From Candidatus Levyibacteriota bacterium (GTDB taxonomy: Bacteria > Patescibacteriota > Microgenomatia > Levybacterales > UBA12049): 33,384 bases of DNA. The stretch is taken from positions 232,290 through 265,673 of the forward strand of contig DAIDHL010000001.1 of assembly GCA_027459745.1 (NCBI GenBank), in the 5' to 3' direction. The translations under genes and the position numbers were made by a program. Positions 1,796-15,676 of the stretch are shown in pieces. The stretch's first letter is position 1. Every line of letters starts with the position of its first letter. The notes under the pieces are model-generated. The model was not told the DNA's origin. It made no database searches and saw nothing but the letters and a program-made list of their open reading frames with translations.

Positions 1796-1972
1796 ATGGT
1801 AAGTCAGCAAGATCTTATTAAGTTCAAACAGCTTTACTATTTAAAATACCACATTCACCTTACAGATCAAGAGGCAATGAAACAAGCGACAGCGTTCCTC
1901 AACCTTATGCAAGTCATCCTAAGCCCAACAAAGAAAAAACAACAACCTCAATATGAAAACACGAACGCTTGA
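1796..1972 (+). CDS. Small protein upstream of LSR (candidate recombination directionality or accessory factor)
   Basis: 58 aa MVSQQDLIKFKQLYYLKYHIHLTDQEAMKQATAFLNLMQVILSPTKKKQQPQYENTNA; AGGA upstream of ATG 1796; 3' end overlaps the recombinase start (1953). Confidence 0.65.
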   Translation: MVSQQDLIKFKQLYYLKYHIHLTDQEAMKQATAFLNLMQVILSPTKKKQQPQYENTNA

Positions 1973-3605
1973 AGATTTATCATTACAACCAGTGCCCGTT
2001 TTTCACCGCTATGTTATTTATTGTCGGAAAAGTAGTGAATCAGATGAACGACAGGTACAATCTCTGGGTGACCAAACTAGTACCCTCCTACCATTTATTG
2101 AACAAAAGGGTCTAACAGTTGTTGGTGAACCATTACAAGAATCAAAATCAGCAAAGTCGCCTGGTCGACCAATGTTTAATCAGATGGTTGATACTATTGA
2201 AGAGGGGAGAGCCAATGGTATTATTCTCCTTAATCCCTCACGACTTTCTCGAAATACTGTTGATACAGGCAGAATTATTTTCTTAATGGATCAAGGAAAA
2301 CTCGAAGAAGTTGTAACACCTTACCAGACATTTAAAAATAACCCTTATGATAAATTCATGCTTAACTTACTTTGTACACAAGCGAAGTTGGAAAACGATA
2401 ATAAAAGCGTTAATGTAACTGATTCTATGCGAATGAAAGCAGAACGGGGGGATTATCCTGGCAAAGCGCGACCTGGGTTTATCAATAATCATTCGAAGAA
2501 TCAAGGTCAACGAGATATATCAGCACACCCTGTCTATTTCTCTCTAATGCGCCAATTAATTGATTATGCCCTAACTGGCAATTATAGTGTCGAAGCGTTA
2601 GTAAAAAAAGCAGGAGAGTTAGGTATACGAACCTATACAGGCAAAATCATTGGGAAAAGCTCACTGCACCGCTACTTACGTGATCCTTTTTATATTGGTA
2701 AATTTATCTATAAGGGTAAACTTTACAACGGCAATCATCCTCCACTAATGACTGAAGAAGAGTTTTTCTTATTGCAAGATATTCTTGATGGGAAAGGTCG
2801 AGGGAAAATACAGAAACACAGCTTTCCTTTTAATGAGTTGATCAAGTGCGGAGAATGTTCATATTGTATAACAGGAGAAACGCACACAAAGCAGTACAAA
2901 AATGGTACCTCGCAAGCATTTACCTATTATCGTTGCACAAAGAAAAGTAAGACACTCAAATGCTCTCAGCCATACGTTGCAGCAAAAAAACTGGAGAAAC
3001 AAATTATTGAAGAATTAGCTTGTTTAGAGCTAGATAAAGAATTTGCAGCATGGGCATTCGAAGCCTTAGAAGATGTCATTGGACAAGAACAACATGTGAA
3101 CGTAGATAAACAATCAGCTTTACAAACGGCACTTGATGGGGTAAATAAGCGAATGAACAATTTAGTTGAATTAAAAATATCACCGAATAACTCCGATGGC
3201 AGCTTACTTTCTGAGGAGGAATTCTCCGAGCGAAAAAGAACACTAATGAGAGAAAAAGAGAAACTTACAGAACAGCTTAAAAATATGAGCACCGAAAATA
3301 CAGACTGGGGGAGTATCGCGAGAGATAGTTTTGACTTTGGTTTGACAGCCTGCAAAAAGTTTGTTGAAGGCTATGATAATGATAGAAAAATGATCGTAAA
3401 GACCATCGGCTCGAAACTGATCTTACTGTATCAAAAATTAGACATCCAGCCTCAATTTCTCTTTCTCAAGTACAAAGAAGGTATAAAACGAACAAAAAAA
3501 GAAATTGCTCGGGTCGTACCTACGAATAGCCTGTCAGATCAATCTAATCTGCAATCTTCTGTAAAAAGTTTCATATGGTACCGCGTACGGGAGTCGAACC
3601 CGTGA
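1953..3605 (+). CDS. Large serine recombinase (resolvase N-terminus, recombinase domain, zinc ribbon, coiled coil)
   Basis: YVIYCRKSSESDERQVQSLGDQ, NPSRLSRNTVDTG, KCGECSYCITGET...YYRCTKKSKTLKCSQPYV zinc ribbon. C-terminus ...WYRVRESNP* is encoded within tRNA-Glu antisense. Confidence 0.95.
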   Translation: MKTRTLEDLSLQPVPVFHRYVIYCRKSSESDERQVQSLGDQTSTLLPFIEQKGLTVVGEPLQESKSAKSPGRPMFNQMVDTIEEGRANGIILLNPSRLSRNTVDTGRIIFLMDQGKLEEVVTPYQTFKNNPYDKFMLNLLCTQAKLENDNKSVNVTDSMRMKAERGDYPGKARPGFINNHSKNQGQRDISAHPVYFSLMRQLIDYALTGNYSVEALVKKAGELGIRTYTGKIIGKSSLHRYLRDPFYIGKFIYKGKLYNGNHPPLMTEEEFFLLQDILDGKGRGKIQKHSFPFNELIKCGECSYCITGETHTKQYKNGTSQAFTYYRCTKKSKTLKCSQPYVAAKKLEKQIIEELACLELDKEFAAWAFEALEDVIGQEQHVNVDKQSALQTALDGVNKRMNNLVELKISPNNSDGSLLSEEEFSERKRTLMREKEKLTEQLKNMSTENTDWGSIARDSFDFGLTACKKFVEGYDNDRKMIVKTIGSKLILLYQKLDIQPQFLFLKYKEGIKRTKKEIARVVPTNSLSDQSNLQSSVKSFIWYRVRESNP

Positions 3606-3652
3606 TTTCCGGGATGAAAGCCCAGCGTCCTAGGCCACTAGACGAACGCGGC
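3579..3652 (-). tRNA. tRNA-Glu (anticodon UUC)
   Basis: Reverse complement GCCGCGTTCGTCTAGTGGCCTAGGACGCTGGGCTTTCATCCCGGAAATCACGGGTTCGACTCCCGTACGCGGTA folds as a cloverleaf; anticodon loop CTTTCAT; CCA not encoded. Confidence 0.95.
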
Positions 3653-3747: not shown

Positions 3748-4428
3748 CTATTTAAATTTCTTATAAAGACTCTCTAGTATATCAGCGGCCACTTCTTTAC
3801 CACCAAGACCAAAAGCAATGCCTCCAGCCAAGGCTACCATAGCAACAAAACCTGTAAAAAGTATTCTAATTAAATCTTGAGCTACACCGAGTTGATTGAG
3901 TACTGCTAATAATACAAATACTGTAATTGCCCATTTAGCAGATGTAGCTATACCTCGTGAGATGCCCGTTGATAACTGTCGAGTAGATGCCAAAATAATA
4001 TCATAGGCTAGACGTGCGAAAATGAGGCCAACTATTCCGATTATTGCAGCAACAAAGACATTTGGTAAGTAAAAAAGAAATTGATTCAGAACAGTTACGA
4101 TCTGTGGCATTTGCCATACTTCAGCTGTGGGTATTAAGAACAGAATAATTACAAACCAGCGAATGATTTCGGCAATTATATTGCTCCAACTAAATTCTTT
4201 TTTAGCCTCAGGAATGCCATATTTTTGTAAATATGCCTCTATTTTAAGAGACATCAAAATTTCATAACAAATTCTTCGTAAAACAGACCCCAAAAGAACA
4301 CCTATTAGCAAGAGAATTAATCCTGCGATGAAGTTAGGTATAAAGGCAATTGTAGCCATGAGACCCTTATTTAAGGAAAGTAAGACTGTATTACCGATAT
4401 TATTTGAGGTTGGGTTCAAGGGAGACAT
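3748..4428 (-). CDS. Membrane protein with conserved TM-helix repeats (mechanosensitive-channel/MscS-like family)
   Basis: Multiple TM segments; IPNFIAGLILLLIGVLLGSVLRRI and LAGGIAFGLGGKEVAADILESLYK pattern. Met at 4428 preferred over the TTG at 4473. Confidence 0.75.
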   Translation of the reverse strand: MSPLNPTSNNIGNTVLLSLNKGLMATIAFIPNFIAGLILLLIGVLLGSVLRRICYEILMSLKIEAYLQKYGIPEAKKEFSWSNIIAEIIRWFVIILFLIPTAEVWQMPQIVTVLNQFLFYLPNVFVAAIIGIVGLIFARLAYDIILASTRQLSTGISRGIATSAKWAITVFVLLAVLNQLGVAQDLIRILFTGFVAMVALAGGIAFGLGGKEVAADILESLYKKFK

Positions 4429-4469
4429 ATTTAAATATACCTTTAGTTTAAGCAGAAGACCTTTGCTTG

Positions 4470-6122
4470 TCAATATACAGCCTTGTTGGTATAATTATTT
4501 GTGCTCGTCTCAAAGTTGGCTAACTTTTTGATCGTGCGGCCCGATAGCTCAGCGGTAGAGCAGGAGCCTTTTAAGCTCTTGGTCCTCGGTTCGAATCCGA
4601 GTCGGGTCACTAAATTGAAATTTGGGTTCTCCATTGCTTGGATTAGCTCGAAACTGCGAGCCATTCCTACGGTTCGAATTTTATGATTCTTTACAAGTAA
4701 GCCTTCTGGAAATATCTCCTTTTGAAGTGCTTGTTGCTGGGTTAATTCCATATTTAGCCATAATTTATCTACGTTTAAGAGAAAGTTTGAAGTAAAGTTC
4801 TTAATTGATTCAGTATTGTACTGCTCAATTCGTATATCAGAGCGCTCTATTCTAAGGATAGCTATATCTTTTCTAGCTTCTTCTGCTCGTGTTTTAGCCT
4901 CATCATCAGTAAGGATACCTTTAGCGTTACCTTCGGAAATAGAAGTTATTTTATTTTCAAGACTTTGGATTTGAACGTCCAATATTTCTGCTTCCTTTCT
5001 TCTATGTTCAATACTTTCATTCCATTCATCAAAAACTAATTGGTTAAATAATTTTAGTACGCGTTCTGTGGGTCTAATTGATGACAGCAAGCTTAAAAAT
5101 TCATTATGCGCTTCTTCAACGTCAATTCTTTCATTTACTTTACAAGTTTTCTCATGACATTCGTAATAATAGTAATGTTTGTTTCTTCCTTTGGGATTGC
5201 TCGAAGTCATTACCTTCAAACAACTTGAACACCTTAAAGTTTCTTTTAGTGGATAAAGTTTGCTGTCTTGAGTTTTATATTTTCTTTTTGATTGGAAAAC
5301 GTTCATATAAGCTCGTTCCCATGTGTTCTTATCAATAAGGGCTGTATGTAATCCCTCCGCGTACTCTTTCCACTTGGGAGCATACATATACCCATAATAA
5401 AAGGTATCACTTATTATGTGTGTAATCAACTTGCCTGTAGCAGGCCTACCATAAACTTGTTCAAATCCCAAACTATTAAGATATTTTGCTAAATTTTTCT
5501 TACTTGTTGGTAACTTAGAGGCTTCTATAAACATTGTTCTAAGCATCTTGCTCAGTTTTTTGTCTAATATTGGCGGTTTTCCTTTATTTTGTTCTCTTGT
5601 AGTAAATGGGCGTTTATATCCAATATGTGGTTTCCAAGGCCAAAGTCCATTTCTAAACATTGTTTGCATATTATCTTTAACACGTTCTCCTTTAAGATTG
5701 TTGTCAAGCTCTCCTAATGCCATTAGGATTGTTCGCATTGCTTTACCCATTGGATTTTGTTCTGTAATTTCTGTAGCTGGTAGTACAGATATCCCATACT
5801 TTGCTAGAAGTGAAATTGCTACTAGTCCTTCCTCAACATTTCTTGTCCACCTATCCATTTTATAAACAATTACCGATGAAATTTTATTTTTTTTGATAGT
5901 ACAGTATTCAAGCAGTCGCCTCATCTCCGGGCGAGTATTCACATGTTTGGCAGAAATACCTTTGTCACGGAAAATTTCCACAATATCGTATCCGTTGTTT
6001 TCCGCAAATGCTTGACAAGTTTTAGCCTGAGTTTCTAGGCTATTATTATCAATTTGGCTAGGGTCAGAAACACGGATATAAATTACTGCTTTACGTCTTA
6101 GCGTTGTTTGTGTTGCTTCCAT
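4470..6122 (-). CDS. Large serine recombinase whose C-terminal tail is read antisense through tRNA-Lys
   Basis: AVIYIRVSDPSQIDNNSLETQAKTCQ, VYKMDRWTRNVEEGL, LRCSSCLKVMTSSNPKGRNKHYYYYECHEKTCKV; tail NLVTRLGFEPRTKSLKGSCSTAELSGR is antisense tRNA-Lys. Confidence 0.95.
   Translation of the reverse strand: MEATQTTLRRKAVIYIRVSDPSQIDNNSLETQAKTCQAFAENNGYDIVEIFRDKGISAKHVNTRPEMRRLLEYCTIKKNKISSVIVYKMDRWTRNVEEGLVAISLLAKYGISVLPATEITEQNPMGKAMRTILMALGELDNNLKGERVKDNMQTMFRNGLWPWKPHIGYKRPFTTREQNKGKPPILDKKLSKMLRTMFIEASKLPTSKKNLAKYLNSLGFEQVYGRPATGKLITHIISDTFYYGYMYAPKWKEYAEGLHTALIDKNTWERAYMNVFQSKRKYKTQDSKLYPLKETLRCSSCLKVMTSSNPKGRNKHYYYYECHEKTCKVNERIDVEEAHNEFLSLLSSIRPTERVLKLFNQLVFDEWNESIEHRRKEAEILDVQIQSLENKITSISEGNAKGILTDDEAKTRAEEARKDIAILRIERSDIRIEQYNTESIKNFTSNFLLNVDKLWLNMELTQQQALQKEIFPEGLLVKNHKIRTVGMARSFELIQAMENPNFNLVTRLGFEPRTKSLKGSCSTAELSGRTIKKLANFETSTNNYTNKAVY
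4538..4609 (+). tRNA. tRNA-Lys (anticodon UUU)
   Basis: GGCCCGATAGCTCAGCGGTAGAGCAGGAGCCTTTTAAGCTCTTGGTCCTCGGTTCGAATCCGAGTCGGGTCA; anticodon loop CTTTTAA; acceptor GGCCCGA/TCGGGTC. Confidence 0.95.
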
Positions 6123-6288
6123 GGTTACCTTGAGTATAGTTTCTTGTAGTGTTTCTTAGTAGACTTGAGAAAAAAATTGACTTTAACAGTTCGGCTGCTC
6201 TAATTTCCACTTTAAGTTCTTCATCAGAAACATTGTCTGCTGATTTCCCAAGTATTTTCCTAGCACGTTTTAAGGTTAAGTTTTGCAT
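6091..6288 (-). CDS. Small protein upstream of LSR (candidate recombination directionality or accessory factor)
   Basis: MQNLTLKRARKILGKSADNVSDEELKVEIRAAELLKSIFF...; overlaps the recombinase start by about 32 bp, same position as ORF 1796-1972. Confidence 0.65.
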   Translation of the reverse strand: MQNLTLKRARKILGKSADNVSDEELKVEIRAAELLKSIFFSSLLRNTTRNYTQGNHGSNTNNAKT

Positions 6289-6290
6289 AA

Positions 6291-6333
6291 TTTCTCAACA
6301 AAAAAACAGCCTCTTCGGCTGCTCGTTGAGAAA
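6291..6333 (-). terminator. Intrinsic terminator nested in an outer 9-bp stem (attenuator-like leader of the LSR operon)
   Basis: Minus strand TTTCTCAAC-GAG-CAGCC-GAAGA-GGCTG-TTTTTTT-GTTGAGAAA ending 2 nt before ATG 6288. Confidence 0.7.
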
Positions 6334-6343
6334 CTAAAAAAGA

Positions 6344-6458
6344 CTCAAACAATCGAACAACCAAATAAGCATATATTTATATTAATGTTTATATAAATTT
6401 ATATATTTATGCTTATGATTGTCCCATTTATTTGAGCCTTCGCTCTCCTAATTAGGAG
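6344..6458. repeat. Cluster of dyad symmetries between resolvase and LSR operon
   Basis: CTCAAA/TTTGAG (6344-6349/6431-6436), ACAATC/GATTGT (6349-6354/6417-6422), ATAAGCATA/TATGCTTAT (6365-6373/6408-6416), perfect 14-bp palindrome CTCCTAATTAGGAG (6445-6458). Confidence 0.7.
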
Positions 6459-6487
6459 TCATCTATAAATTACCACAATGAAGTAAT

Positions 6488-7147
6488 TCACGCAACAGGA
6501 AGATTATTTATAGGTTTAACATCATGAGTTTGTAGCCAATGATGAAGATTTGCGGGCGTTGTATTATAACGTTTTGCGACAAACTCTTTGGTTGAGCCAT
6601 TTTTAAGGAGTGCAAAAATCTCTATAGAATATGGGTCTAGTTTTGACTTACCAATTTTTCCAGCTGGGCGCCCAAGTTTTACACCTTGGAGCTTCCGCGC
6701 GTACAAAGCCTCGCGGGTTCTTGAAGCGATAAGGTCTCTCTCAACCTCTGAAGCAAGACTAAAACAAAAGGCAATCATTTTAGATTGCAGTGAATTATCT
6801 AAAACCCAGTTGCCTTTAACTGAATATACGCATATTCCTTTTTGTGTCGCAATTGAAAGCAACTCCATGACCTCTAGCATGTTGCGAGCCAATCGTGAAA
6901 GCTCTGAAACAATGAGAGCATCTCCTTTTTGCATAATATCAATTATTTCTCCGATTTTACGTTTTCTCCACTGAACTGTGCCTGACATTTGTTCAGAAAT
7001 AAATTGGACATGTCCTAAATGTTTTGTGTTTGCTAGTTCTAAAATTGCTGCTTTATTTTTTTCTAAATCTTGTAATGCAGTTGAAACCCGTAGATAAGCG
7101 TATGTTTGATGTATATGATTAGATTGCTGATTTAATGAAAACGTCAT
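6488..7147 (-). CDS. Small serine recombinase (resolvase/invertase family)
   Basis: TYAYLRVSTALQDLEKNKAAIL, ALIVSELSRLARNMLEVMELL, SKMIAFCFSLASEVERDLIASRTREALYARKLQGVKLGRPAG; start chosen at MTFSLNQQ. Confidence 0.93.
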   Translation of the reverse strand: MTFSLNQQSNHIHQTYAYLRVSTALQDLEKNKAAILELANTKHLGHVQFISEQMSGTVQWRKRKIGEIIDIMQKGDALIVSELSRLARNMLEVMELLSIATQKGICVYSVKGNWVLDNSLQSKMIAFCFSLASEVERDLIASRTREALYARKLQGVKLGRPAGKIGKSKLDPYSIEIFALLKNGSTKEFVAKRYNTTPANLHHWLQTHDVKPINNLPVA

Positions 7148-7290
7148 GTTAATAATTTTATTATATGAAATCCTATAATAAATGCAAGCCTTTTCTTTAT
7201 ATGAAAGTGAATAATTAAAAGGAACGTTTATACTTAATAAGGTATAGTTTAAGATTAACAATATTTTTAGATAGGAGTATAATGCTGTGA

Positions 7291-10200
7291 ATGAAGCAAG
7301 CAAACAGGAAAAGCAAGATTAAAAACCTCTTTTTAAGCTCTGCGAAAAGATATAAGAAATTCTGGATAAAATCTAAGAGTAAAGTCTACAAGATTGTAAT
7401 TGACCGCAAATTAAAACTTATTAAGGCTTCACGGAAGTCCAAAAGCGTTATAAATAATTTTATTAACCATCTCAAAGGAGTCTGGCTATGGCTATCAATT
7501 CTTATTGGAGGATTTTTTTATTTGGCAATTGAAAGCGAATTATCAACTCTTTACACAACTAATTTGCAAAGCATGAGAATTATAACACTTGGATTAATTG
7601 TTATATTTCTCTTATTAGTAAATTTTGTTCTTAAACCTATAGAAAACCTAAGAAAGGAAAAACTATGGATTCAACACTCATGGGTATTTTATTCATACTT
7701 TACAGTTCTAGCCTCTCCACTAGTAGCTTTTTTTCTAAAATACATATTTTTTGACGAGTTATGTTCAAAATTAAATATCCAATGCTATTCATTGCTTACA
7801 GGGAGTCATTTTTTTGTATGGGATTTAATAATTAGACTTCTAATAGTCATTATTGGAATTGTTCTTTTTGTTTCCATTAAAGGTGAATTACCTGATATTG
7901 CCTTACGATTTGCTGCCGGTTCCGTAGGTTTACGTGATGACTTGCTTGGATATGCTGTTTCTGCTAAAAACTGGGCATTAGGTTTAGCTAAACTTAATGA
8001 TTATGTTAATGTTGTCTATTTATATGGAGATATGGGATATGGGAAGTCTTCACTTGCCAGAATGATTGTAGAGAGTTTTGATAGAAGAAAAATACTATAT
8101 ACATATATATCCCTGACCGAAACAAATCAAGCAAAAGATTTTTCCTTACTTTTTTCTGAAAGATGGCTAGAATCACTAAAAGAACGGTATCCTAAAATTA
8201 GTGTATTAGACGACTCGCTTTTTTTAAGCTCTATTTTACGTGAAAGCGGAAATGGTTTTTTATCTGAGTTATTATCTTTTATTTCAAAATTTGATAAAGG
8301 ATTAAAGCCAACAAAGGCAAAAATTTATGACCAGTACATTGATAAGAAAAGAGAGCATACTACAGACTATATTGCTCAGCTATTTGGTAATATTCCTGAA
8401 TTCCATGAAACATTGTGGATTGTAATGATTGATGAGGTAGAAAGGGCAAAACTAGAAGAAATTTACAGAGTTATAGAAGTTCTTGAACGATTTAAGGCAG
8501 AAGGTAGGCCTGGATTACCTCTAAAATTAGTATTTATCCTATGTATTTCTCCACATGATTTAGATGAACTCCTTAACAATGCTAATGATGAAAATAGCGA
8601 AATTAAACACCAAATAAGAAAATTTATGACAAATGATTCAAAAAGCGCACTTTCAAGAATATTTTTGCCTCCTCTCTCATACGCAACAAGAAAAGGCTAC
8701 TTAAATAAAATCTTAGGAAATTTTATTTCCACATACAAAATAAAAATACCCGAAAGTCTTGAAAAATATAATCCTGATACATTTTATAACTCCCGTGACA
8801 AATCTAATATTCCCTATAATGAAGCATTGCAGTTCGGGCTAGGCTTGCTTATATATGAAGCTCCAAGAACGATACAAAGAAATATACAAGAGCTTGAGCT
8901 TATATATTCATCTTTCAGAAATATTGAAGGGAAAACTATATTAGGTTACATACGTTTCCCCGATATTTTAATTGTAACCTATGCAAGCATTAGATTCCCA
9001 TTCTTAATAGTTTTTTTTCAGAAGACAATAAATATGTTTCTGTTAGACCAGAATGATTCTTTCTCAATTTCAAGGTACTTAGATAGAGATAAGTACAAGA
9101 AAGGTGAGAAAAACATATTTACTTGGATAGCAGATGAGACAGGATATGAAATTCCTGATAAAGAAAAGGAAACTATTTCAAGAATTATAGGCATGATTGC
9201 ACATTTTTACTTGAATTATGTAGGAGATAAAGAAGTGAGCCAGAATAACATTTGGCGTGAAACTTCCCTATCAAAACCTGAAAACTTACGAGATTATCTA
9301 GCTATTATAGCGAGTGAACCAACTGATGCCTCAAGAAAAGCATTTCAAACTTACCTCTTTCACCAAAATAACTTAAATAAAAATTATCTTAAAAATTTAT
9401 CGCCACTGGATTTAATTGAATATTCAAGGTTTCTGTGGCCAACTGAGGATGCAAATATTTTGTGTAAGCTTGAATTAGCAAACGAATTCTGTAAAAGGTT
9501 TGCAAGTAGAAAAATACCTAAAGTAAAATATGGTATTCATGATACAATTTATGAGGAAGCAATTTATCAATTCCTATTTAATTTATTAGCTATTCATGAA
9601 GCAGCCGATGCCTACCAACCAACTCAGGATGCTCTAACTGCCTATTATCGAGTAATTCAACTTCTAAAGGACTTTTTATTATCTCCTAATGTAATTACTG
9701 GTGGAAAGTATCTAATGCTTAACTCTTTGTTAAATACAGAAAAACCAGGAGGCGGAGATGTATCATTCAGATTATCGAAAATGTATGGCAAAATGAAAAA
9801 AGAAGGCAATGGACTTTATGATGAAGTAAAATTTGTTGTAAATGAAGCATATAAAAAGTATTTTGATGGCAAACTAGATATTTATGATAATGAAGAAAAT
9901 TTTTTCTATGTGTTGTATCAGAGTTGGACAGGTAAGAAAGACGATGTGGAAGTAATAGCCAAAATTCAACAGGCTGCAATGCGAAATTTGTCTAAACATG
10001 TACCAGCAATAAAATTATTTTGGCAATTACTATACCCGTATAAAGGTGGTCTGCCAACAGATATTGATGAATTGACAAAGTCATTTATTATCAATACAAG
10101 TGAAAATGCTGAGTTTTTTTTGACACTCGAGCAATTAGTAAGAGCTACCCATAACGCAAATTTGAGCAATCTCGAGCCTGAGTTAAAAGAGAGAATTGAT

Positions 10201-10344
10201 TGGTGGGACCAAATAGCAAATAACCCTGAAGAGCTAGCAAAATATAAATCTTGGCGGAAAATTATAGACAAAAACGATACTTTAGTAGGATTTCTTTTAA
10301 GAAATGGTTTTTTTACAAAGTTGAGTGAATTAGAAGGAAATTAA
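7291..10344 (+). CDS. Large membrane-anchored P-loop NTPase, KAP-like
   Basis: Four predicted N-terminal TM segments, Walker A GDMGYGKSS (about 8026-8052), Walker B WIVMIDEVERA followed by LKLVFILCISPHDLDELL; long AT-rich C-terminal region without a recognised domain. Confidence 0.75.
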   Translation: MKQANRKSKIKNLFLSSAKRYKKFWIKSKSKVYKIVIDRKLKLIKASRKSKSVINNFINHLKGVWLWLSILIGGFFYLAIESELSTLYTTNLQSMRIITLGLIVIFLLLVNFVLKPIENLRKEKLWIQHSWVFYSYFTVLASPLVAFFLKYIFFDELCSKLNIQCYSLLTGSHFFVWDLIIRLLIVIIGIVLFVSIKGELPDIALRFAAGSVGLRDDLLGYAVSAKNWALGLAKLNDYVNVVYLYGDMGYGKSSLARMIVESFDRRKILYTYISLTETNQAKDFSLLFSERWLESLKERYPKISVLDDSLFLSSILRESGNGFLSELLSFISKFDKGLKPTKAKIYDQYIDKKREHTTDYIAQLFGNIPEFHETLWIVMIDEVERAKLEEIYRVIEVLERFKAEGRPGLPLKLVFILCISPHDLDELLNNANDENSEIKHQIRKFMTNDSKSALSRIFLPPLSYATRKGYLNKILGNFISTYKIKIPESLEKYNPDTFYNSRDKSNIPYNEALQFGLGLLIYEAPRTIQRNIQELELIYSSFRNIEGKTILGYIRFPDILIVTYASIRFPFLIVFFQKTINMFLLDQNDSFSISRYLDRDKYKKGEKNIFTWIADETGYEIPDKEKETISRIIGMIAHFYLNYVGDKEVSQNNIWRETSLSKPENLRDYLAIIASEPTDASRKAFQTYLFHQNNLNKNYLKNLSPLDLIEYSRFLWPTEDANILCKLELANEFCKRFASRKIPKVKYGIHDTIYEEAIYQFLFNLLAIHEAADAYQPTQDALTAYYRVIQLLKDFLLSPNVITGGKYLMLNSLLNTEKPGGGDVSFRLSKMYGKMKKEGNGLYDEVKFVVNEAYKKYFDGKLDIYDNEENFFYVLYQSWTGKKDDVEVIAKIQQAAMRNLSKHVPAIKLFWQLLYPYKGGLPTDIDELTKSFIINTSENAEFFLTLEQLVRATHNANLSNLEPELKERIDWWDQIANNPEELAKYKSWRKIIDKNDTLVGFLLRNGFFTKLSELEGN

Positions 10345-10557
10345 ATCTCTGGTTTTAACTCCGAGTGTATCGGCAATTTTCATAAGTACTTTCATGGAAG
10401 GCATTTTGTGACCAATTTCAATAATTGCTAGGTAGTTATGGGTTATTCCAACCTTTTCGGAGAGTTGTTCTTGTGTTAATCCTTTACGTTGCCTTACGGT
10501 TTGAATTGTTCTTCCCAGAACATAGTTTTTATTTCTTAGCGGATTGGGCTTGCTCAT
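10330..10557 (-). CDS. XRE-family HTH transcriptional regulator
   Basis: LGRTIQTVRQRKGLTQEQLSEKVGITHNYLAIIEIGHKMPSMKVLMKIADTLGV; converges on and overlaps the KAP-like gene by 15 bp. Confidence 0.92.
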   Translation of the reverse strand: MSKPNPLRNKNYVLGRTIQTVRQRKGLTQEQLSEKVGITHNYLAIIEIGHKMPSMKVLMKIADTLGVKTRDLISF

Positions 10558-10597
10558 GGTTTAAGGGTAACAAGCAGTAATCTGAATTGGTATTTTC

Positions 10598-10675
10598 TGA
10601 CAGTCAATAATAATGAGTCTAGTATCTTGATTTTGTTTTACTGACAGTTATATAATATTGACTGTAGGTCAATAA
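10598..10675 (+). promoter_or_regulatory. Divergent operator/promoter with ACAGTCAAT half-sites
   Basis: TTGATT (10627-10632)-18 bp-TATAAT (10651-10656); TGACAGTCAATAA (10598-10610), TGACAGTTA (10642-10650), inverted ATTGACTGT (10657-10665). Confidence 0.7.
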
Positions 10676-10685
10676 AGATTAAGAT

Positions 10686-11174
10686 ATGGAAGTAATTTAT
10701 AGACGAAGTCCATTTTCGGTTTTTGGAACAAATCCGCTTAGAATACTTATGCCTCAAGGCTGGTTAGATGCCCTAGGGTATACTAGAAACTACATAGTTT
10801 TGACAGATGATGCAGTTGTTCTCAAACGTGGAATAATCAATAAAAGGAACACATCTATAAATTACGACAAGATAAATTCTATTAAAATTGAGCAAGGTTT
10901 TCTTGGTGGTTTATTTAATTTTGGAGATGTTTTTATCATTAGTGGCAATGATGTTCTTGGGGAAGTAGTCAGAGGGATTATTAACCCTGAAAAGTTAAAA
11001 GCCGATGTTCAGGAGCGAATAAATATGTCTGGAAAGCATAAAACGCACAATTCTGCTGTTGAAATAAAGGATGATAACTTGGATAAGTTAGAAAAACTGG
11101 CACAATTAAAGAAGAAAGGCATAATCACTGAAAAAGAATTCGCAGCAAAGAAGAAACAACTCCTAAGTGTATGA
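10686..11174 (+). CDS. Bacterial PH-domain protein with C-terminal SHOCT motif
   Basis: YIVLTDDAVVLKRGIINKRNTSINYDKINSIKIEQGFLGGLFNFGDVFI (bPH2-like); LDKLEKLAQLKKKGIITEKEFAAKKKQLL (SHOCT). Confidence 0.88.
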   Translation: MEVIYRRSPFSVFGTNPLRILMPQGWLDALGYTRNYIVLTDDAVVLKRGIINKRNTSINYDKINSIKIEQGFLGGLFNFGDVFIISGNDVLGEVVRGIINPEKLKADVQERINMSGKHKTHNSAVEIKDDNLDKLEKLAQLKKKGIITEKEFAAKKKQLLSV

Positions 11175-11311
11175 AAAGTAAAAAAGCAGCGGAAATTGAT
11201 TTATTTACAGAACAATTAGCAAGGCTCTTTATCGAACAGGCAAAGTGGAAAAGAAGCAAAATTTCTCATCTTGGTATAGGAAAAATTAAAAAAGGAGAAT
11301 TAAATAAATAA
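11171..11311 (+). CDS. 46-aa ORF translationally coupled to the PH-SHOCT gene
   Basis: ATGA stop/start overlap; MKSKKAAEIDLFTEQLARLFIEQAKWKRSKISHLGIGKIKKGELNK; below the ORF-track size cutoff. Confidence 0.5.
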   Translation: MKSKKAAEIDLFTEQLARLFIEQAKWKRSKISHLGIGKIKKGELNK

Positions 11312-11451
11312 AGGACATAATCTACTAAGCAAATTACAACTAAAACTAATAAAATTTTAAGAAAGATTGCTACAAGTTTTGTTTTGGGGCTAAGTGGAAC
11401 ATTAGAGGCTTCGTAAACTGGTGAACCGTCAGGGAGTTGTATATTCTCCAT
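11266..11451 (-). CDS. Small single-TM protein (hypothetical)
   Basis: MENIQLPDGSPVYEASNVPLSPKTKLVAIFLKILLVLVVICLVDYVLYLFNSPFLIFPIPR; plausible TM segment, no clear SD. Confidence 0.45.
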   Translation of the reverse strand: MENIQLPDGSPVYEASNVPLSPKTKLVAIFLKILLVLVVICLVDYVLYLFNSPFLIFPIPR

Positions 11452-11711
11452 ATTTTGATACTATCTCAACCATTAAGTTAACGCAATACTGTCCCTTGCT
11501 TGTTTAGGCTCATTTTGGCAATTGTTTTAACAAAACAGGTATAATGTGTTGCTTCAACTAGCATAAACATGCCTAAGCTATTTTGCTAAGTTATAACATT
11601 CTTACGTTTGGGTTTCTAAGGTAAATAAGAGGAAGATGTTCAGGATGGTAATTAAGTACAAAGGTAAGTATTCCTAGGGAATAAGGTATATCTCTTGCAG
11701 TAGCTTCATAC

Positions 11712-12221
11712 ATGTTAGATAATCAGTTTATGCTCAGGTGGTTTGCAAACAAATATACTGAAGAAGAAACTCAAAGATGGATATTATTACGTTCTATTGA
11801 ATGGCCTTCTTACCCAAACTTTCTCGCACCCTTATGGGGCATTTTTATTGTTTATTATTTCGGTTGGTTAGTTTATATTGTAACTTTGATTGTGATTACT
11901 TTTATTTGGAAATTCTACATTATGAATAATTATGTCAGTATTAGATTGATGGAGGTAATGGGCTTATGGGTTAATTTGCTAAAGTGGCCATTAGCAGTTA
12001 TTTTTGCAATTGTAAGTTTCGAATCACACCGCAACATTATATTTACGCTTTTTCTTTTGATTTTCCCATTTATAACTTATATGTGTTCGTATTTAGAATT
12101 TCCATATAAAAGAGGAGGAATTGATAAGAATCTTGCAAGGATGCTTAAAATGCAGAATATGATTAGGAGCAAGCTTGGAATTGAAAAACTTACCAAACTC
12201 GAAGAAATACTAAATAAATAA
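11712..12221 (+). CDS. Hypothetical multi-TM membrane protein
   Basis: Four hydrophobic segments, long ORF collinear with the next gene. Confidence 0.7.
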   Translation: MLDNQFMLRWFANKYTEEETQRWILLRSIEWPSYPNFLAPLWGIFIVYYFGWLVYIVTLIVITFIWKFYIMNNYVSIRLMEVMGLWVNLLKWPLAVIFAIVSFESHRNIIFTLFLLIFPFITYMCSYLEFPYKRGGIDKNLARMLKMQNMIRSKLGIEKLTKLEEILNK

Positions 12222-12229
12222 AAATTCCT

Positions 12230-12619
12230 ATGGCAATCCAGTTTTCAATAATTGATGAAATAAAGAAGGTTGCAGAAATTGCCCAACAGGCGAAGAATAT
12301 TCCTCTGTATCAGAAAATCCTTGATGTTCAAGCAAACTTACTAAAAATGCAGGAGCATATTCTCAAACTGGAAACTGAGAATAAAGAATTGAAAGATAAG
12401 TTGAAAGTGAGTAAAAATGTAGTTTATGAAAGCAATGCTTATTGGACAACAGAGAATGACAAAAAAGATGGTCCTTACTGCTCACACTGCTATGATAAGG
12501 AAAAGTTACTTATAAGAATGCCAGACAATCTTAACCACGCATACGCTACCTGTTCTGAATGTAAAAATACATATCAAATACGTCCTGATAGAAACCAAAC
12601 TCCTCCTGATTGGTATTAA
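12230..12619 (+). CDS. Coiled-coil plus zinc-ribbon protein
   Basis: LLKMQEHILKLETENKELKDKL then GPYCSHCYDKEKLLIRM...YATCSECKNTYQI (CxxC...CxxC). Confidence 0.8.
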   Translation: MAIQFSIIDEIKKVAEIAQQAKNIPLYQKILDVQANLLKMQEHILKLETENKELKDKLKVSKNVVYESNAYWTTENDKKDGPYCSHCYDKEKLLIRMPDNLNHAYATCSECKNTYQIRPDRNQTPPDWY

Positions 12620-12620
12620 G

Positions 12621-12659
12621 AATAATACTTACATCAACTGTAATGATGTGAAGCTTATT
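12621..12659. terminator. Bidirectional hairpin between convergent genes
   Basis: AATAATACTTACATCA (12621-12636) / TGATGTGAAGCTTATT (12644-12659), imperfect inverted repeat followed by a short T-rich stretch. Confidence 0.55.
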
Positions 12660-12722
12660 TTGACGTGTCCTTAAGAAAAAGATGATGCTTTATATAGAAG
12701 TAAGACCTTGCTGTGTCCTAAG

Positions 12723-13310
12723 CTATCCTGCGAAGTTTCCGCTAGTTTGAGTTTGTTGTGCCTGTTTTTTCCTTTCTTGCTCTGCTAGCCATGCGGCTTC
12801 TTCCTCTGGAGTTTCAATTAGTTTGTCTGGGTATGGTGGTAACTCTAATCCATTTGCCCACGTCATATAGACTGGTGGGCGTACACTGTTCTGAATATGT
12901 ATAGATGTGTTTTGAGTTTGTTGGTGAGGGTCAAAGCCAAGCCCTAATCCTTCAAGCTTCAAGCCTTCAACGAGGTATGAAAGCACATCTTTGGCAGTTT
13001 GGGGTTCAAGGTCATCTTCCATAAGCCTTTTTATAGCTTTACTACTTGCTAGTCTTCCAAGTTGGACTATTTTCTTTTTGTACTGCACTACTTCGTTTTC
13101 TGCCTGTTTTTGGATACGTTCCGTTGCCTGAAGGATAAGCTTTGCCCTTTTTGCAGGCCATTGTTCTTTTAAGCCTCTAAATTCAATAGTGCGTAAAGGC
13201 ACGCTATATTTATCAGCAAGCTTTTGGTATGACATTTGAGGGTCAACCAAGTAATCGTGAAGCATTTGAAGCCATACATTGGCTTGGATTTCATTTATGA
13301 AATTATCCAT
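12723..13310 (-). CDS. Terminase-small-subunit-like / HTH phage-type protein
   Basis: LHDYLVDPQMSYQKLADKYSVPLRTIEFRGLKEQWPAKRAKLIL resembles the TerS N-terminal HTH pattern; Q/E-rich C-terminus. Confidence 0.55.
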   Translation of the reverse strand: MDNFINEIQANVWLQMLHDYLVDPQMSYQKLADKYSVPLRTIEFRGLKEQWPAKRAKLILQATERIQKQAENEVVQYKKKIVQLGRLASSKAIKRLMEDDLEPQTAKDVLSYLVEGLKLEGLGLGFDPHQQTQNTSIHIQNSVRPPVYMTWANGLELPPYPDKLIETPEEEAAWLAEQERKKQAQQTQTSGNFAG

Positions 13311-13768
13311 ACGATTTTGAAGGCTAGGATTACCATAACTGCACCATAGCCTTACGCAATTATTTTACAAGAAATTTGTCAAATAATTTAGCTATTGGAC
13401 TGATATAGTTTGATATGTCTAAGAGCTTAGACCTTTGCGCGCGCGACCTTAGAAATAAAATATGTTTTCGCTTAAATCAATTCCTATCTATGATTCTAAT
13501 ACTTAAACGGAGTAATAGGAAGGCTGTGCGATGAGCCTATTTGTTTCCTGTCCAAACAGTTGAAAGTACTTAATGAGGTCAGGTATAATATGATTCCGAA
13601 CTTTAACCCTTTGGGTCACCGAAAAGAAAGTAAATATCTGAACACTACTATTATTCCCTTTTAGCTTCATACTGAATAAAATATCTGATTATAAAGTATA
13701 TGTTAGTATTGAGATACCATTTCTATAGATTGTATTTAGTAAAACTTATGTGATTATAATAAAAGTAT

Positions 13769-15676
13769 ATGGCTGAAGGTGGAATAGCAGGAGAGACTGG
13801 AATAATGCTCACAAGAACTGAAACGTCCAGAAGTCTCAAAGAAGCAGAAAAATATAAGGCACTTGAAGTATTAACTAAACTGGGTTTGCTTATGCCTGTA
13901 AGTCAAATGGAGGTATATCATGGGCGTGTGGGGAAAAAAGGTGAGCAATGGAAAGTAGATCCAATGTTCACCAAAAATGGTAATCCTGCCAATAACAGAA
14001 ATGTATATGTAAGGCCTGCTCTATATGCTTCAGATAGAGAAACTGCCAAAGCTTTTGCGCTATCACGAGCTTCTGAAAAAATTCCTCCCTCATATAAAGC
14101 TATTGCACTTGAGACTATACAAAATTATACCCCCGCAGAACGTCAATCATGGTTGGATAGAGTGAATCATGAAGCAGCAGAAAGAGTAAGAGATATTGGT
14201 GGTAAGCCAGCTGTTTATACACCGTCTGATCTTAACAAACCGGGTTTTATACATAATGAAATTCGTTATTTAGCTCACCGTGCCTTTAGAGATAGCATGA
14301 ATTCTATCTCGCAAATCGGAACAGACCTTCGTATGGAATTACATGAAATTGCTGCTATAGATACTGAAGCAAGAGTGATAGATTTACGCTTTGATATCAA
14401 TAAACTTACCCCTGAAGATAAATTAAAGTACAAACATGCTTTAGAAGCACTCGCTATAGCAGTGACAGTAGGTTCTCCTCTAAATTTTGAGGTACGAGAA
14501 GATTTACCTAAGTTTACTAATGCCGTAAATGAATTACAATTAATCGCACAAAAAAAATTTATTTTATCACGTGAGATTGCTCAAATTGCCAGTCATGCAG
14601 GAATAAGTGAACAGACAGCCTTACAGATATCCAGTGCGTTTAATTCTCGCCAAATGGCTTTAAGTAAACCACAATATCTCGCAAATCGGCTTTTGTATAA
14701 TTCATCTAACATATTTAATGAAACAGGGGTCATTATAAATGGTAGTAGAGAAGACTTACCCATAAATTTGGAATATGCAGAAAGATACATGCGTGAGGCA
14801 CATATAGTTGCTGCACAACAACCCGTAGATTCTGTTACTCTTGATCGAACAATCCAGGCTGTATCTTTCTTTGATCTTGATAAAATCGGTACCCGAGAGC
14901 AAATTGATATACAAAGACATGATATGCTACAAAAAATGAGAGGACTTATTGATGTATTTCCACAGTTACCTAATTTAGAAGATGCAGGTGCAGCAAGTCC
15001 ACTTATTGTAGCGTTACAAGATGCTCACGTAAAACCTCACCAACTATTAGATACAGCAAAACAGATAGGAGAATTTAAAAAAATTTATGAGAGTGATGCA
15101 GGAAACTGGGAAAGGTTTACACTAGAAGAACATACTGAAACAGTACTCAGGAATTTTGATGAGAATTTCGCTGATATAATTCCTGTTGAATATTTAGTTC
15201 CACTACGCTTAGCAATTCTCGTACATGACTTAGGAAAACCTTTGGCAGTAAGTCGTGGAGAAAAGCAAAATCAGAAATCATATAACGCATTTTATGCTAA
15301 AGATTTCCTTAGATCCATAGGTATTGACTCTCGCATGCAGGAATTGATTAGCGCAATTATTACAGATGGTGCTGACCTCGCATTTAAATTACAAACACAA
15401 CCGCAAAATGAAAATACACGATTGGCCATGGAAATTTACGCAGAAGATGTATTGAAAAGATATCTTGGCACCAATATGATTAGCAGTTCACAAGTACAAG
15501 CATTTTCACAAATGTGTAAAATTTTGCAGCTTTGTGATGGTGGTGCATATACAGACATGGCTATTACAAGACGTCCCACAAAAGGAAGTTTTAGAAATGC
15601 ACCATCTTTTAATAAAAGCTTTGCTCCTCCAATTGGTTTAGGCAGAAGAGATATTAAATATCCTGAAGCTCAATAA
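13769..15676 (+). CDS. HD-domain phosphohydrolase-like protein with N-terminal ART-like motif
   Basis: MEVYHGRVGKKGEQWKVDPMFTKNGNPANNRNVYVRPALYASDRETAKAFALSRA; HD: EEHTETVLRNFDENFADIIPVEYLVPLRLAILVHDLGKPLA. Confidence 0.7.
   Translation: MAEGGIAGETGIMLTRTETSRSLKEAEKYKALEVLTKLGLLMPVSQMEVYHGRVGKKGEQWKVDPMFTKNGNPANNRNVYVRPALYASDRETAKAFALSRASEKIPPSYKAIALETIQNYTPAERQSWLDRVNHEAAERVRDIGGKPAVYTPSDLNKPGFIHNEIRYLAHRAFRDSMNSISQIGTDLRMELHEIAAIDTEARVIDLRFDINKLTPEDKLKYKHALEALAIAVTVGSPLNFEVREDLPKFTNAVNELQLIAQKKFILSREIAQIASHAGISEQTALQISSAFNSRQMALSKPQYLANRLLYNSSNIFNETGVIINGSREDLPINLEYAERYMREAHIVAAQQPVDSVTLDRTIQAVSFFDLDKIGTREQIDIQRHDMLQKMRGLIDVFPQLPNLEDAGAASPLIVALQDAHVKPHQLLDTAKQIGEFKKIYESDAGNWERFTLEEHTETVLRNFDENFADIIPVEYLVPLRLAILVHDLGKPLAVSRGEKQNQKSYNAFYAKDFLRSIGIDSRMQELISAIITDGADLAFKLQTQPQNENTRLAMEIYAEDVLKRYLGTNMISSSQVQAFSQMCKILQLCDGGAYTDMAITRRPTKGSFRNAPSFNKSFAPPIGLGRRDIKYPEAQ

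Follow-up and report, generated by a model that had tools for sequence, protein, structure and literature searches.

An attachment site apparently inside the gene of a large serine recombinase of Microgenomatia, with exchange of the C-terminal tail upon integration into a tRNA gene

The large serine recombinase (LSR2) of element 2, an element integrated in the genome of Candidatus Levyibacteriota bacterium, very likely carries the attachment site attP within its own gene, so that integration exchanges the C-terminal tail of the enzyme, as judged from the sequences at both junctions. Such an in-gene attP with tail exchange looks general in Microgenomatia, a class of Patescibacteria (Candidate Phyla Radiation), when the recombinase sequences of the class are compared. 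The window, meaning the whole stretch of DNA that was analysed, is 33,384 nt of contig DAIDHL010000001.1, from a host genome of 1.37 Mb in 22 contigs. The features of element 2 and its target are as follows, in window coordinates.

4470-6122, minus strand: LSR2, the recombinase in its integrated form, 550 aa from an ATG, with 504 element-encoded and 46 host-encoded residues
4470-4610, minus strand: host-encoded C-terminal tail of LSR2, antisense to tRNA-Lys and its upstream region, then a stop
4538-4610, plus strand: tRNA-Lys(TTT), the integration target, called by ARAGORN in a conserved tRNA-Glu/MscS-like/tRNA-Lys island
4604-4610: attL core GGGTCAC, 7 nt in common with attR, with the crossover inside, probably in TCAC
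4611-13612: element 2, about 9.0 kb, bounded by the att cores, with contents assigned by Pfam and PHROGs
13506-13619, minus strand: orphaned natural C-terminus of LSR2, VTQRVKVRNHIIPDLIKYFQLFGQETNRLIAQPSYYSV, with its stop at 13503-13505, in frame with LSR2 across the core
13613-13619: attR core GGGTCAC, with host DNA to its right

LSR2 showed the domain set of large serine recombinases, with Resolvase (PF00239, E=3.7e-31), Recombinase (PF07508, E=8.5e-6) and a zinc-ribbon (PF13408, E=1.6e-4) that scored 22.5 bits, below the gathering score of 25.3; in PHROGs it matched the phrog_95 integrase (E=4.4e-69). Its frame, which ends in NLVTRLGFEPRTKSLKGSCSTAELSGRTIKKLANFETSTNNYTNKAVY and a stop, is open across the whole of tRNA-Lys(TTT), just as the original prediction had read it. 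The stop had also been said to overlap the neighbouring host ORF. A 4-nt overlap does exist with the mechanical start of the MscS-like ORF 3748-4473, but it is probably not meaningful because this start is a TTG and the homology in relatives mostly begins at residues ~22-25. A sigma-70-like promoter match for tRNA-Lys (TTGTCA-17-TATAAT, 4467-4495, a consensus match only) lies largely within the tail-coding stretch. The tRNA-Glu/MscS-like/tRNA-Lys island is kept in most relatives across the family, mostly without an LSR.

The prediction further held that homology to other LSRs should end near the residues VT and that tails should follow the target tRNA, and both expectations were borne out. The homology breaks at residue ~504, just before VT, and the C-terminal part of LSR2 reads NLVTRLGFEPRTKSLKG... 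The closest relative, at 60% identity, comes from a Roizmanbacteria genome of the same class (G050, contig JAAXWC010000016.1); it sits in tRNA-Glu and has a tRNA-Glu tail, NVIPRGFEPRLEG followed by a stop. In an alignment of 11 LSRs, the common region stopped roughly 7-10 residues ahead of the RNA gene, and the tails did not align. Since the att core sits at the 3' end of tRNA-Lys, the tail is supplied by the host, as had been proposed.

Synteny with a congener (G001) showed host DNA until 4611 and again from 15823. A search for a repeat of the tRNA-Lys 3' end at the right end of element 2, allowing up to 3 mismatches, found none, and attR emerged only through comparison with G050. A conserved P arm adjoins the core GGGTCAC at the far ends of element 2 and of the G050 element. 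In G050, attL reads GGGATCAC and attR reads GGGGTCAC, while the P arm of the genome studied here (G000) reads GGGTCAC. This mismatch locates the crossover at the extreme 3' terminus of the tRNA, with the core resolved to 7 nt, and together with the att cores it delimits element 2 as given above. Beyond the core, the host DNA of G050 is unrelated (19/60 identical). No circular form and no attP-spanning read of element 2 was seen; attP as used here is a reconstruction from attL and attR.

Besides LSR2, element 2 contains a small resolvase, a bPH/SHOCT protein, hypothetical ORFs and, as its main cargo, a 1017-aa membrane/ATPase-like protein (7291-10344) with weak ATPase_2/AAA_22 matches; it matched nothing among defence or phage structural proteins. 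The interval from attR to the conserved host gene contains a 635-aa protein (13769-15676) with a weak Cas3-HD-like stretch, for which the homologous stretch of G001 gave no DNA match.

When the attL and attR halves were joined, an open frame extended the body of LSR2 by the 38 residues of the orphaned C-terminus. A tblastn search with this peptide found it in G050 (55%, E=2e-8), in G001 (50%, E=8e-9) and more weakly in G382. The G050 and G001 matches covered all 38 residues with an identical stop position, and the G001 copy adjoins the same host boundary. Changes at codon positions 1, 2 and 3 numbered 16/14/19, 10/12/19 and 13/15/24 in three comparisons, with position 3 varying most, and the NG86 dN/dS was 0.40, 0.28 and 0.19. 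These values indicate that the lost tail is under purifying selection and conserved at the protein level, over a stretch that extends well past the ~25 bp of a half-site; some of it may be at the DNA level, since the core-proximal part overlaps the P half-site. A conserved natural tail encoded in frame at attR places attP inside the LSR gene. The tail looks helical. With a dN/dS of 0.2-0.4 and an unvarying length across three genomes from two families, it probably has some role in the free form. No relative of it was found in phage records, and no ribosome site was seen by eye for the orphan tail as a small peptide from its own GTG.

Reading of LSRs into RNA genes was examined across the class, and it occurs far beyond chance: 74 of 86 distinct Microgenomatia LSRs read antisense into a tRNA or tmRNA, with a stop 11-195 nt inside. 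The targets include tRNA-Glu, Leu, Asn, Lys, Ser, Gly, His, Phe, Gln and others, and some of these tRNAs were called with introns. When the tails of the remaining 12 were read, at least two (L006, L367) resembled antisense tRNA uncalled by ARAGORN, and L040 and L116 looked interrupted. Both the antisense frame and the tail length vary between elements, so the integrated tail sequence itself is not under selection. LSRs at tRNA-Asn and tRNA-Thr genes with group I introns (L095, G048:C4:232850-233422; L105, G049:C9:338579-338863) enter the 3' exon antisense, and four LSRs (L009, L010, L012, L015) have C-termini antisense in tmRNA.

Natural tails at attR-like sites were recovered for four families. 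The scan took 7-nt matches to each attL junction in the LSR frame and then compared all against all, and 13 pairs of the real set and 10 of the control set passed the threshold, numbers that by themselves do not tell the two sets apart. Among the real pairs are the known ext1 pair and the ext3 and ext4 groups of short peptides, as well as some overlaps with ordinary genes or duplicate records. Most control pairs were duplicates within one record or parts of ordinary genes. With an HMM built on the largest tail family, extra members were found in G001 (E=1.3e-6 and E=2e-4) and in G185 (E=0.006).

Uninterrupted recombinases were then compared with the hybrids. The hybrid C-termini of G053 and G185 aligned without gaps across the junction to the uninterrupted LSR of a viral contig (L185, IMG/VR), which ends at the contig edge; the L264a hybrid needed one gap, upstream of the junction. 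A second clade gave the same pattern with an uninterrupted 623-aa LSR in G016, a copy that possibly belongs to a tandem array. When 374 genomes were searched with a profile spanning the junction, the 103 matches separated cleanly: 61 lay on the N-side (median end 39; 39/61 in frames of >=400 aa), 25 on the C-side as orphans (median start 32; all in frames of <=65 aa) and 17 crossed the junction. The structure model of the L185 LSR was poor (pLDDT 61.7, tail helix <40), and the tail was not placeable in it. A single-protein query of IMG/VR returned no relative of the same subfamily and an alignment query only distant ones; plasmid records likewise held only distant serine recombinases.

Neighbouring orphan LSR tails were observed at G053:C4 ~92.6-94.6k, G001:C4 19.8k and 23.6k, and G049:C9 349-353k; such clusters apparently are remains of insertions that took place one after another, or in tandem, at a single tRNA. 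Outside the class, a Clostridia LSR group (within L268-L294) also ends antisense in tRNA-Leu/Ser, LSRs of the IMG/VR viral contigs L204, L208 and L211 end antisense in tRNA-His, and in another Clostridia group the frame reaches a stop of its own 240-550 nt ahead of a tRNA. The C-terminus of the free forms of those ending in tRNA-Leu/Ser/His was absent from all phage records.

The spacing of the T-loop motif TTCGAAC was measured from the core. In the ext4 clade its position is +16 for attB and +21 for attP, and this 5-bp difference held in 4/4 junctions of three elements; in ext1 (LSR2 and G050) it lies 4 bp further from the core in attP. Shifts of +5 and +4 agree with serine integrases, in which the zinc-ribbon motif is shifted 5 bp between attB and attP (PMC3783163). 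No such shift was seen for G382 or the ext2 and ext3 elements. TTCGAAC falls among the codons of the tail, so the FE of the ext4 tail consensus may in part be DNA-driven.

A second recombinase, LSR1, sits across the small host island from LSR2 and likewise ends in a tRNA gene.

1953-3605, plus strand: LSR1 of element 1, ending in KSFIWYRVRESNP and a stop within tRNA-Glu, antisense
3576-3652, minus strand: tRNA-Glu(TTC), the target of element 1, called by ARAGORN

The attR of LSR1 was not found, motif search included, and a candidate at C11:221150 was rejected because its frame stops after two codons. Between LSR1 and the left host boundary (C11 ~199.2-235.9k) lie one more LSR and an LSR remnant. 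This LSR3 (L031, G000:C11:206774-208303) ends in STPSGTMFVPI and a stop with no recognisable RNA gene adjoining; a TTCG stands near +20, counted from the core. The LSR3 end at 208.3k and the remnant at C11:201.8k are identical over 109 nt and split directly after GTACCC, one of them entering a natural tail.

We propose that the free circular form would carry attP in the 3' end of the LSR gene and encode an enzyme of ~542 residues with the conserved ~38-residue tail. LSR2 would recombine attP with the 3' end of tRNA-Lys at the core GGGTCAC, the last bases of the tRNA, with the T-loop acting as an outer recognition motif. An intact tRNA-Lys would remain on one side after integration, the 504-residue LSR2 body (catalytic, recombinase, zinc-ribbon and coiled-coil) would be joined to sequence read antisense from the tRNA, and the natural tail would be left at attR without a gene start of its own. 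Both forms would be translated, and the exchange may alter the activity, stability or directionality of the integrated enzyme and so mark the integration state. The integrated enzyme is probably not dead, because its catalytic, recombinase and zinc-ribbon parts remain in one frame; loss of an accessory function would be likelier than enzyme death, judging by the coding signature and by the catalytic domains that are kept. The state-switch step of this explanation is put forward tentatively, as possible rather than probable.

How far the exchange matters to the enzyme is where explanations diverge. The tail exchange, though real, might be neutral, with attP simply occupying the compact 3' terminus of the gene and the enzyme working with either tail, a reading that we regard as a serious candidate short of likely; integrated tails differ widely in length, frame and sequence, and integrated forms keep long LSR ORFs with intact catalytic and DNA-binding parts, but the lost tail is conserved, with the low dN/dS and fixed length described above in three genomes of two families. 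By analogy with integration-dependent immunity of mycobacteriophages, the natural tail could instead be a state-specific regulator, such as a degradation tag or a directionality element. There too attP lies in a gene and a short C-terminal segment is lost upon integration (PMC4557955), and the last residues of some tails are small and hydrophobic (LAFA, FSYA); others end in GENK, ESDV or YYSV, which are not tag-like, and we consider this somewhat unlikely. Most lost tails have no ssrA-like ending, so that a degradation tag was rejected as a general reading. A state-dependent change is best called plausible, and a neutral by-product nearly as likely.

Two further explanations concern the origin of the tail. 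The element might itself carry a duplicate of the 3' end of the tRNA; the first tail residues would then be element-encoded and the remainder host-encoded. Fragments of tRNA 3' ends do stand at attR in some elements (G001:C8, CTCTCATCCGCAC; G022), suggesting that the crossover may lie deeper in the T-arm there, but the att sites of LSR2 have only 7 nt in common and in G050 the tRNA-specific base is on the tRNA side of the crossover, which makes this improbable for LSR2. Read-through by chance, with no stop ahead of the tRNA and no other C-terminus, would draw on the frequency of open antisense frames in tRNAs; it is contradicted by the conserved in-frame C-termini at attR, the uninterrupted LSR and the profile breakpoints, and we give it hardly any credence. 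Tail exchange through an in-gene attP remains the reading that we prefer.

Suicidal integrases, recombinases that split their own gene, are tyrosine enzymes and were called exclusively archaeal in a review (PMC8371274). Like those of the SSV1, pTN3 and pT26-2 type, LSR2 has attP in the recombinase gene, which integration splits, leaving orphan fragments; chimeric genes can also be re-created between related elements (PMC8371274). The archaeal enzymes are tyrosine recombinases with Phage_integr_3, in which the catalytic domain is parted from the N-terminus, whereas here a serine recombinase in a bacterial host loses only a tail of ~25-45 residues and keeps its body intact. Because of its serine recombinase domains and bacterial host, LSR2 resembles a suicidal integrase in topology and is not a member of that group. 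In mycobacteriophage BPs and relatives, attP lies in the repressor gene and integration removes 33 C-terminal residues with a regulatory effect (PMC4557955). Both cases have attP within a gene and lose a short C-terminal segment from the integrated product, but there the split gene is a repressor with a shown ssrA-like tag, and here it is a recombinase that gains a host-encoded tail. The large serine integrases of A118, phiC31 and SV1 share the domain order and the logic of the att sites, with the outer motif likewise displaced by 5 bp between attB and attP (PMC3783163). Their attP lies beside the gene, and for SV1 it is stated to be downstream of the integrase gene (PMC4068962), whereas that of the Microgenomatia enzymes is part of the coding sequence, and these enzymes have a conserved tail in addition. 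Searches of an open-access library found no published report of an in-gene attP for bacterial large serine recombinases or Patescibacteria.

If the reading is true, these enzymes would be a serine-recombinase counterpart of the archaeal suicidal integrases, class-wide and with many tRNA and tmRNA targets. A comparable topology is here widespread across a class of bacteria, and its recombinases belong to the other superfamily. Orphan tails serve as fossils of past insertions and delimit elements in genomes where the ends are difficult to locate. LSRs for genome engineering, when drawn from integrated copies, may be missing their true C-terminus and end in one derived from a tRNA. The free-form and integrated-form enzymes would offer a natural comparison for the control of directionality in serine integrases. 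That serine integrases of Patescibacteria swap their tail by integrating, and that their structure thereby reports the free or integrated state and helps set the direction of the reaction, could well be so, though we stop short of calling it probable.
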